The notes under the pieces: generated by a model
Told to the model about the DNA's origin: nothing
Databases searched by the model: none
The model's input: the letters and a program-made list of their open reading frames with translations, nothing else
Shown here: one piece after another, positions 4,492 to 33,409 of the stretch
Layout of the letters: each line of letters starts with the position of its first letter
Position numbering within the stretch: the first letter of the stretch is position 1
Position numbers and translations under genes: made by a program
From: a bacterium EF100-94H03 bin56
GTDB lineage: Bacteria; Pseudomonadota; Alphaproteobacteria; SP197
Direction of reading: 5' to 3'
DNA length: 64,000 nt
Assembly: GCA_002238685.1 (NCBI GenBank)
Contig: MPMV01000005.1
Location: forward strand, 1-64,000

Positions 4492-5724
4492 CTAGCGGCG
4501 GACGATCTGGCGGACGGCGGCGAAGCAGCCGTAGAGGATGACGGAGATGATGAGGGACCCGACGAAAGCGTGGGGCCCGAACTCATCCATTGACATGCCG
4601 ACCATGAGCGGTCCCACCATGCCGCCGATCCCGAAGAGAAGCGAAAAGACGGCATTGGCTGCGACGAGGTCGACAGAACGGAAGCGTTGTCCAAGCAGGG
4701 TGAGGCCGACGGTGAAGACTGCGCCCATGGCGCCGCCCCAGACGACGATGACCGACCACAGGAGGAGACCCGGTCCGGTCCACCAGGGTTCGGCGCCACC
4801 ATGGAGGAGCCAGGGCAGGGGCGCCAGACACGCTGCGATGATGAAGACGCACCCGACCAGTAGCCAGCCCCGGTGCACGCGGTCCGCCAGCCATCCGACA
4901 GGATACTGGAAGAAGATGGCGCCGACCGACCCCACCCAGATGACACCGTATCCCGTCTGGCGGAATTCCTCCCCGAGCACGTCCATGGTGTAGAGGTGGG
5001 CGAAGGACTGCAGCCCTCCCTCGAGAATGCCGAACATTGCGGACGACAACAGCACGGTCGGCGCTGCCAGGAACACGATCATGAGACGGCCGATGCCTGA
5101 GCGGGCACGATCTTCGACGGGAAAGGTGAACGAGATCCTGCGGGTTGGCAGAAGCAGCACCGAAGTGACGAGGACCGACGACAATCCGATCAGGAAAGGC
5201 CAGGCGGTTTCCGGGTCAAGGCTGGCGCCGACCACCGGCCCGACGGCCCAGCCGGCCATGCCGACCGTGGTGTAGATGCCCATCCATCGTCCACGGACCC
5301 GGTCGTCGAGGATCTGGTTGATCCAGGTGTCGCCGGCCGTGAACAGCAGTGCGTTGCCGACACCGAGCAGGAATCTCAGCGCACACCAGGCCGTGTAGTC
5401 GCGCCAGAGCGGCAAACCGATGAGTGCGACAGCGACAAAAACGAGGCCGGCAGCAATCGATCCCAGTACTCCCAGCACCGGAATGAAGCGAGTGGCGACA
5501 AGAGACACGATGGCGATACCGGCGAACTGCACGGCGGCACTGATGCTGATCTCGGTCTCGCTGTACCCCCTGTTGCTGAGGGATTCGGCGAGAATGGGCC
5601 ACACCAGAGAACTCGTCATGCTGACGACCGACAGCGCCGCGATCAGCAGGATCAGGCACCGTCGTCTGTCGCCAGGCGACAGACGAACCTCAGACGTGGT
5701 CGATCCGCTGTGTGTCACGGACAT
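4492..5724 (-). CDS. Major facilitator superfamily transporter
   Basis: About 410 residues with 12 hydrophobic segments in the MFS pattern. N-half features include SSLVWPILAESL in TM1 and ALRFLLGVGNALLFTAGDTWI. The loop 2-3-like motif is weak, and DDRVRGRWMGIYTTVGMAGWAVGP matches the motif C/antiporter-type region. The C-half has a second GWLADRVHRGWLL loop motif. This arrangement resembles the YcaD/UMF1-like sugar or drug efflux families. The substrate cannot be told. The ATG at 5724 (MSVTHSG) is chosen; a GTG-type start at 5760 is possible. Either way the gene overlaps the end of the upstream NUDIX gene, so the two are probably cotranscribed. Confidence 0.85.
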   Translation of the reverse strand: MSVTHSGSTTSEVRLSPGDRRRCLILLIAALSVVSMTSSLVWPILAESLSNRGYSETEISISAAVQFAGIAIVSLVATRFIPVLGVLGSIAAGLVFVAVALIGLPLWRDYTAWCALRFLLGVGNALLFTAGDTWINQILDDRVRGRWMGIYTTVGMAGWAVGPVVGASLDPETAWPFLIGLSSVLVTSVLLLPTRRISFTFPVEDRARSGIGRLMIVFLAAPTVLLSSAMFGILEGGLQSFAHLYTMDVLGEEFRQTGYGVIWVGSVGAIFFQYPVGWLADRVHRGWLLVGCVFIIAACLAPLPWLLHGGAEPWWTGPGLLLWSVIVVWGGAMGAVFTVGLTLLGQRFRSVDLVAANAVFSLLFGIGGMVGPLMVGMSMDEFGPHAFVGSLIISVILYGCFAAVRQIVRR

Positions 5725-31524: not shown

Positions 31525-32679
31525 TCAAGCCGCGCTGATCATTCGGTTGATGGTCTTTGAAAGCGAGTCGGGGGTGAATTCATGGGCATCACCCTTGAGC
31601 ATCACCATGTTCTCGGGCTCGAAGCACAATGAGGCGATCGCCCCCGCGTCCCTTTCACCGAGTTCCCCGAGTGTCAGGTCGAAGCCGATGTCGCCAAGGA
31701 AACGCCGATAGAGAGACGACGCCTGCCGCGCCGTTGCTCCCTCCGGTCCGCCAAGAGCCGCCGAGACGGCCGAATAGGCGTCAGCCGCCGCCTCGGCCGA
31801 GTGCTCGATGGTGGCGGCAAGGGCAAGGCCAACGGCGCGTCCGTGGTGAATTCCGGCATGTTGTCCCAAGGCATGGCCGATGGCATGGGCGACGGCGACA
31901 CCCGTCACGTCGAATGCGACACCAGCCAGTGTGGCGGCAATCTGGACATGGCCGCGTGCCTGCGTGTCGGCCGGATGACGCACCGCCTCGGGAAGCCACT
32001 CGCGAAGCGTCCTGATGGCGCCGAGTGCAATGGTCGAGGACACCGGATTTCGCCGCCGACACGTCGCCGATTCGATCGCATGGACCATGGCGTCTACTCC
32101 CGTGGCGGCAGTCAGTGGCGCCGGCAGGGAAACGGTGAGGAGCGGATCAAGCAGGGCGAGGTTGAATCGCAGGCTCTCTCCCCAGGCCCACAACTTGCGC
32201 TCGCTTGTGCTGAAGACCGAGGTTCGTGTCACCTCGGATCCGGTGCCTGCGGTGGTTGGCACGGCGATCTTGGGAAGTCCGCCGGCAGGCACGGGCGTTC
32301 CGCCAAGGGCAAACGTCTCGGCACCCCGGCCGTCAGGTGCAAGGCAGGCTGCGAGCTTGGCGGCATCGAGTGTCGAACCTCCTCCCATGGCAACGATACA
32401 GTCCGCGCCTCGCGACCGGGCCTGTTCCGAGATGGCATCGACCGTCTCGGCCGCGGGATCGCTGGCAATGTCGCTGAACACGCTGCAGCCATGCCCGGAC
32501 TCGCCAAGCGCGCCAGCGGCGCGTTCGGCAAGGCCGTTGCCGGTGTGAACGGGATCCGTCACGAGGAGAACGTCGGCTCCATCACCGGCAAGACGTTTGA
32601 CATCGCGGCCGAGTTTCATCAGGCGGTTGTCGCCGAATGCCAGCGGTACCGGCGCCGCGAAACTGAATGGAAGAGGCAT
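31525..32679 (-). CDS. Iron-containing alcohol dehydrogenase
   Basis: 384 residues of the group III Fe-ADH family. The NAD site is AMGGGSTLDAAKLAA, and PTTAGTGSEVTRTSVF is the second family motif. The metal ligands are the Asp and His of GVDAMVHAIES, a His in AHAIGHALGQH and a His in AGIHHGRAVGL. The substrate could be an alcohol, a diol or a hydroxy acid and cannot be set from sequence. It is transcribed away from the phasin gene. About 215 bases of unassigned DNA separate it from the convergent carboxypeptidase gene. Confidence 0.9.
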   Translation of the reverse strand: MPLPFSFAAPVPLAFGDNRLMKLGRDVKRLAGDGADVLLVTDPVHTGNGLAERAAGALGESGHGCSVFSDIASDPAAETVDAISEQARSRGADCIVAMGGGSTLDAAKLAACLAPDGRGAETFALGGTPVPAGGLPKIAVPTTAGTGSEVTRTSVFSTSERKLWAWGESLRFNLALLDPLLTVSLPAPLTAATGVDAMVHAIESATCRRRNPVSSTIALGAIRTLREWLPEAVRHPADTQARGHVQIAATLAGVAFDVTGVAVAHAIGHALGQHAGIHHGRAVGLALAATIEHSAEAAADAYSAVSAALGGPEGATARQASSLYRRFLGDIGFDLTLGELGERDAGAIASLCFEPENMVMLKGDAHEFTPDSLSKTINRMISAA

Positions 32680-32757: not shown

Positions 32758-32772
32758 TTGTGCAGTGCACAA
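32758..32772 (+). promoter_or_regulatory. Palindromic operator-like site 1 upstream of the phasin gene
   Basis: TTGTGCAGTGCACAA is a perfect palindrome with seven-base arms around a central G. It lies about 7 bases upstream of a -35 element. The central TGCAGTGCA core is shared with site 2. This fits a dimeric repressor; PhaR/AniA is the obvious candidate, as PhaR proteins bind TGC-rich dyads at phasin promoters. Confidence 0.65.
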
Positions 32773-32779
32773 TTTTCTA

Positions 32780-32808
32780 TTGACGATCCCCTCTGCCGTA
32801 CCTATATC
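32780..32808 (+). promoter_or_regulatory. Sigma-70-type promoter of the phasin gene
   Basis: TTGACG (32780-32785) and TATATC (32803-32808) are separated by 17 bases, close to the consensus TTGACA-17-TATAAT. Transcription would start near 32815, inside palindrome 2. The start codon lies about 40 bases further on. Confidence 0.65.
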
Positions 32809-32812
32809 GAAC

Positions 32813-32829
32813 ATGTTGCAGTGCAACAT
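32813..32829 (+). promoter_or_regulatory. Palindromic operator-like site 2 overlapping the phasin transcription start
   Basis: ATGTTGCAGTGCAACAT is a perfect palindrome with eight-base arms around a central G. It covers the expected +1 site, so a protein bound here would block the promoter. It has the same TGCAGTGCA core as site 1, with centres 56 bases apart. Confidence 0.65.
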
Positions 32830-32853: not shown

Positions 32854-33390
32854 ATGGCCAATGCAAAGACAACCAGCGAGACGTCGCAGGTCCCGGATGT
32901 GGACGAGGTGATCGAAACCGGGTTCAGGGTTTCGGAAGACGTCGTGAAATGCAACACGGATGCCACCAGGAAGGGTTTCGAGACCATGGTCACCATGGGT
33001 CGTGACGCGTTCGACACCGCCGCCCGGGCGGGTGGCGACAACACCGTTCTTGAACAGGTCAACGACATCCGCCGCGCCAACTTCGAAGCGATGGTCGAAG
33101 CCGGCACCACGTTCATGAAGGGTGTCGAGGGATTCAACGGCTGCGTGCTCGATATTGCCAGGCGGCAGGCCGCCGAAGGCGCCGAGACCCGCAAGGCGCT
33201 TGCCGGAGCGAAGTCGTTCGGCGAGGCGGTCGAGATTCAGCAGGGTTACGTGCGCAAGGCCTTCGACCACGCCATTCAGGACAGCGTGGACATGACGAAT
33301 GCCTGGCTGCGAATTGCCACGCAAAGCGGCCAGCCGCTCGGCCAGCGGTTCAGCGATGCATGGAGCCGGGCCGTTCGCCAGACTGCCTGA
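32854..33390 (+). CDS. Phasin family protein
   Basis: 178 residues, almost wholly helical and amphipathic, without a signal peptide. The pattern DEVIETGFRVSEDVVKCN, GFETMVTMGRDAFDTA, ANFEAMVEAGTTFMKG and SFGEAVEIQQGYVRKAFDHA matches the phasin_2 family. Phasins coat polyhydroxyalkanoate granules and limit their size. The ATG at 32854 follows GGAGACGAG; longer frames upstream run through the promoter and are rejected. A strong hairpin terminator follows. The promoter has two operator-like palindromes, suggesting tight control by the PHA state of the cell. No PHA synthase is in the window. Confidence 0.87.
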   Translation: MANAKTTSETSQVPDVDEVIETGFRVSEDVVKCNTDATRKGFETMVTMGRDAFDTAARAGGDNTVLEQVNDIRRANFEAMVEAGTTFMKGVEGFNGCVLDIARRQAAEGAETRKALAGAKSFGEAVEIQQGYVRKAFDHAIQDSVDMTNAWLRIATQSGQPLGQRFSDAWSRAVRQTA

Positions 33391-33409
33391 CCGGCGTTCC
33401 TTGCGAGCG

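Follow-up and report, generated by a model that had tools for sequence, protein, structure and literature searches.

Predicted operators for the PHA-sensing repressor PhaR at a phasin promoter in an uncultured alphaproteobacterial lineage

Two perfect dyads with a common core, TGCAGTGCA, lie on either side of the promoter of a phasin gene, phaP, in the 64-kb stretch of DNA analyzed here (the window), and their sequence and placement make it very probable that both are operators for PhaR, the repressor that senses PHA granules. This gives a well-defined predicted operator pair for an uncultured alphaproteobacterial lineage. The PhaR-operator reading is right, yet it is known biology, a new instance in another lineage; related sites elsewhere in the genome suggest that PhaR may also control a neighboring carbon-assimilation pathway in this lineage.

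Dyads and promoter at the phasin gene

Both dyads are odd-centered, with a central G and perfect arms, and they bracket a sigma-70-type promoter, TTGACG-17-TATATC, with 56 bp between their centers (Table 1). The phasin ATG (32854-32856) is 25 bp downstream of the proximal dyad, and phaP is the sole Phasin_2 match in its genome. A sequence-only reading of this DNA had described two perfect dyads of the same core flanking the phasin promoter, and the positions, the hexamers, and the ATG are exactly as it gave them. Its placement of the second dyad over the expected start of transcription is likewise borne out for the start predicted from the hexamers, which would fall at about 32815, within the proximal dyad.

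Table 1. Predicted PhaR sites, promoter elements, and genes. Plain numbers are window positions; other coordinates are given by locus, with the contig in parentheses.
Feature	Position	Strand	Remarks
Distal operator (predicted PhaR), TTGTGCAGTGCACAA	32758-32772	.	Center 32765, arms of 7; 7 nt upstream of the -35 hexamer
-35 hexamer, TTGACG	32780-32785	+	From sequence; TTGA kept in all aligned phasin promoters
-10 hexamer, TATATC	32803-32808	+	From sequence; spacer 17; -10-like box there in relatives, mostly CATAT-type
Proximal operator (predicted PhaR), ATGTTGCAGTGCAACAT	32813-32829	.	Center 32821, arms of 8; over the expected transcription start
phaP, phasin gene	32854-33391	+	178 aa; Pfam Phasin_2 PF09361, E 7.7e-23
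Iron-containing alcohol dehydrogenase gene	31525-32679	-	Divergent neighbor; Pfam Fe-ADH
ccr box, TTGCACTGCAA within CATGTTGCACTGCAACAAG	L016:1501-1511 (G000:C74:64807-64817)		Between divergent ccr and acyl-CoA mutase genes
panC box, ATGCTGCACTGCACAAT	L003:1501-1515 (G000:C35:6603-6617)		Just upstream of panC
Hydratase dyad, TATTGTGCATCGCACAATA	L002:1501-1515 (G000:C8:18965-18979)		Just upstream of MaoC-type hydratase gene
phaR box, CCATGCCGCAGTGCAACAAAG	L058:6958 (G000:C52)		Weaker; upstream of phaR

The window holds 13 odd-centered perfect dyads with arms of at least 7 nt, and only the two at the phasin promoter have a common core. When the 174-nt intergenic region was shuffled (20,000 dinucleotide shuffles), one such dyad arose in 1.1% and two in none. 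The full-length distal dyad, TTGTGCAGTGCACAA, has no second occurrence in the 4.5-Mb genome, even with one mismatch allowed. Genome-wide scans showed no enrichment of the short core TTGCRNYGCAA (13 sites vs. 28 for the reversed control) or of the degenerate Sinorhizobium meliloti motif (10 sites vs. 9 for the reversed control); such unenriched degenerate scans cannot define a regulon in one GC-rich genome, so conservation across relatives was used instead. Because the core motif occurs by chance in the genome, only full-length dyads in promoters carry weight. The concern that the dyads occur randomly in the genome is thus justified for the short core but not for the full-length sites, which are rare. 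As a separate observation, the longest odd-centered perfect dyad in the window is one of 25 bases, TCGTCTGTCGCCAGGCGACAGACGA, at 5662-5686, possibly a terminator.

Conservation and spacing at orthologous phasin promoters

The family sample comprised 16 genomes and 15 orthologous phasin promoters, 14 of which were scanned by position and the fifteenth (L049/L130) covered by alignment and a separate check. All 15 have one dyad just 5' of the -35 box, its center about 15–17 nt before TTGA, and a second at the expected start, its center about 13–17 nt after the -10 box, so the prospect, raised in the sequence-only reading, that the dyads might be missing upstream of orthologous phasin genes does not hold. 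The core TGCAGTGCA of the proximal dyad is retained in nearly all relatives. The main conserved features of the phasin upstream region are the TTGA of the -35 box, a weak -10 box, and the two dyads; little else aligns, and the upstream neighbor genes vary among the 15 orthologous phasins. A strict scan, whose criterion was chosen after the phasin sites had been seen, found at least two sites in 13 of 14 phasin promoters, compared with 0.013 expected from shuffles. A third dyad lies 17–18 bp upstream of the distal one in 6 of the 14 (L039, L040, L041, L043, L045, and L050) and is lacking in the genome studied here. The more divergent paralogous phasins L051-L055 are without the dyad pair. A search at order level gave the same 16 genomes as at family level, so comparison further afield relies on a small number of more distant loci; all eight of these relatives, which include a second record of L040, carry one box or more.

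Spacing between dyad centers among relatives is 56, 58, 59, 60, or 61 bp, a drift of about half a helical turn, and this bears on the earlier suggestion that the two operators may loop. A DNA loop or rigid dimer–dimer contact across the promoter would be a variant of the PhaR explanation; it would fit two sites placed 56 bp apart, one on each side of a single promoter, and for Ralstonia eutropha phaP1 a model with LacI-like auxiliary operators has been put forward (PMC12849132). However, helical phase is not kept as the spacing drifts, which argues against phased looping, and 56 bp is short for a loop. Moreover, in S. meliloti PhaR binds when just one of the two sites is present, whichever it is (PMC12542648), and each site alone would sterically block the polymerase. 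The looping suggestion is hence unlikely to be correct.

Predicted binding by PhaR and a probable wider regulon

PhaR (PF07879) is present in all 16 family genomes, as is Phasin_2, and the PhaR of the genome studied here, encoded on contig C52 at L058:7030-7608, passes the TIGR01848 equivalog model with 156 bits against a cut-off of 109. Published PhaR sites include the Bradyrhizobium diazoefficiens box TGCRNYGCASMA, obtained from DNase I footprints (PMC6201568), the S. meliloti motif WNWD2NYGCRNYGCRNH2WNW, accompanied by EMSA (PMC12542648), and the R. eutropha box YTKNTGCRNYGCANMAR (PMC12849132). Both dyads carry the odd-centered TGCRNYGCA core (motifs of PMC6201568 and PMC12849132), and both are mismatched to YTKNTGCRNYGCANMAR only at the two outermost positions. 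The proximal dyad has one mismatch to TGCRNYGCASMA (A where S is expected), and the proximal site is an exact match to the S. meliloti motif; the distal 21-mer, CTGTTGTGCAGTGCACAATTT, departs from that motif at bases 1 and 3, which belong to the outer 5' arm. As its reverse complement, TTGTGCACTGCACAA, the distal 15-mer is contained in the PhaR site of S. meliloti phaP1, TTATTGTGCACTGCACAAATT (PMC12542648, Table 3), and the phaP1 promoter with this site was efficiently bound by PhaR in EMSA (PMC12542648). With three published motifs matched, PhaR encoded, and the sites conserved, the evidence points to PhaR/AniA as the leading candidate, as had been proposed from the sequence. The accompanying idea that these exact sequences might serve to define the lineage's operator is fair, although the operator had already been defined in other lineages.

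Sites of this type are also found at ccr, panC, and a gene for a MaoC-type hydratase. These loci were picked in the genome studied here for carrying full-length sites, and the counts that follow include that genome; the independent test is given by the other genomes. The criterion of the scan, too, had been fixed with the phasin sites already known. A box lies no more than 200 nt upstream of ccr in 15 of the 15 family genomes scanned (shuffle mean 0.4 promoters), of panC in 12 of the 12 scanned (shuffle mean 0.4 promoters), and of the hydratase gene in 15 of 16 (shuffle mean 0.8 promoters). The ccr product is crotonyl-CoA carboxylase/reductase (TIGR01751), and the divergent gene encodes an acyl-CoA mutase that belongs to the methylmalonyl-CoA mutase family and, given its place beside ccr, is probably ethylmalonyl-CoA mutase; a second box-like sequence, TTGCATCGCA, is found in this intergenic region, nearer the mutase gene. 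After panC (TIGR00018) comes an ORF that looks like panB, while the hydratase gene is on the same contig as phaC, about 7 kb away. In addition, a box lies upstream of phaR in the genome studied here and in several relatives, is kept in close relatives, and is suggestive of possible autoregulation.

Based on these sites, the family PhaR probably acts at ccr and the mutase gene, panC, the MaoC-type hydratase gene, and phaR as well. We consider it rather likely that PhaR directly controls entry into the ethylmalonyl-CoA pathway (ccr and the divergent mutase gene) together with panC-panB and the MaoC-type hydratase gene, such that granule status would determine how C4-CoA is divided between storage and assimilation, as well as coenzyme A supply. 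The boxes before ccr and panC would thereby define a testable regulon in which the storage of polymer is tied to the assimilation of acetate and the supply of coenzyme A. No published connection between PhaR and ccr was found in the literature searched, which was thin in subscription journals, and the link between the PhaR box and ccr appears to be unreported. It is the conserved ccr box that merits follow-up, and what is new in it is a prediction.

With PhaR and the phasin in every genome of the family, their distribution does not help to tell PhaR apart from a different conserved regulator that recognizes this motif. A different conserved dimeric regulator that recognizes TGC-N3-GCA dyads could account for the same dyad before ccr and panC, which are outside PHA metabolism proper, in that a CoA-ester or acetate regulator could control both. 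We nevertheless regard such a regulator as very improbable, as the dyads agree with PhaR motifs from three independent determinations and with an S. meliloti site that was tested, and a box is also found upstream of phaR itself in this genome and several relatives. Furthermore, weak EMSA and reporter data from S. meliloti place the panC operon under PhaR control (PMC12542648), and this provides independent support for PhaR as the binder of the conserved box.

That the dyads serve the divergent alcohol dehydrogenase gene instead of the phasin gene would fit the distal dyad being 86 bp upstream of the dehydrogenase ATG, but the flanking sequence is common to the closest relatives only, and in more distant relatives, which have unrelated upstream sequence, the dyads stay at the phasin promoter, at an almost constant distance from its -35 box; this very improbable reading was rejected, and the dehydrogenase gene is a neighbor and probably not the target. 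Least probable of all, and likewise rejected, is that the proximal dyad, which lies across the expected start and might fold into a short stem, acts as a hairpin in the leader of the phasin mRNA instead of as a DNA operator, as a distal copy with the same core lies upstream of the promoter and so outside its transcript, sites at other genes are at varied positions, and the motif is a known protein-binding site.

Proposed mechanism and comparison with known PhaR systems

If the dyads are PhaR operators, then in the absence of polymer a PhaR dimer would occupy each of them, with the distal dimer abutting the -35 box and the proximal dimer covering the start site, and RNA polymerase would be kept off the promoter. 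Upon formation of polyhydroxybutyrate granules, PhaR would be drawn onto the polymer, leaving both sites empty; phasin would then be made and the granules coated. The placement of the sites suits steric repression, in which each predicted dimer would block either -35 access or the start site. PHB was shown to abolish PhaR binding in vitro (PMC6201568), and release of PhaR by polymer is established in other species (PMC6201568, in vitro; PMC12542648); for the genome studied here we infer that PhaR binds, represses, and is released by polymer, as well as where exactly transcription starts.

Several PhaR systems have been described with which this promoter can be compared. In Bradyrhizobium diazoefficiens, the TGCRNYGCASMA core was found by footprinting, phaP1 also has two sites, and binding is lost with PHB, but the sites sit on both sides of the -35 region, 6 bp from it, and not at the start (PMC6201568). 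AniA/PhaR of S. meliloti shares with the present system the identical 15-mer (as reverse complement) at phaP1, two sites in each of the phaP1 and phaP2 promoters, and the inclusion of panC in the regulon (PMC12542648). In contrast, the S. meliloti sites flank the -35 element, with centers 18 or 28 bp apart, whereas those described here flank the whole core promoter at 56 bp; the third dyad of some relatives, 17–18 bp further upstream, has the S. meliloti phaP1 spacing. Repeated TGC at PhaR targets is a further likeness to the PhaR box of Paracoccus denitrificans and Rhodobacter sphaeroides (Maehara and co-workers), compared here by its description as cited in PMC10888616. Phasin gene phaP1 of R. 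eutropha (Cupriavidus necator) H16 is repressed by PhaR through odd-centered palindromes, YTKNTGCRNYGCANMAR, of which DNase I footprinting placed one immediately before the -35 box and the other around the start (PMC12849132). It differs in having a third site predicted inside the ORF (PMC12849132), and the betaproteobacterial palindromes are degenerate, whereas the arms are perfect in the genome studied here. The Ralstonia-type layout, with one site before the -35 box and one over the start, thus holds across a whole alphaproteobacterial family.
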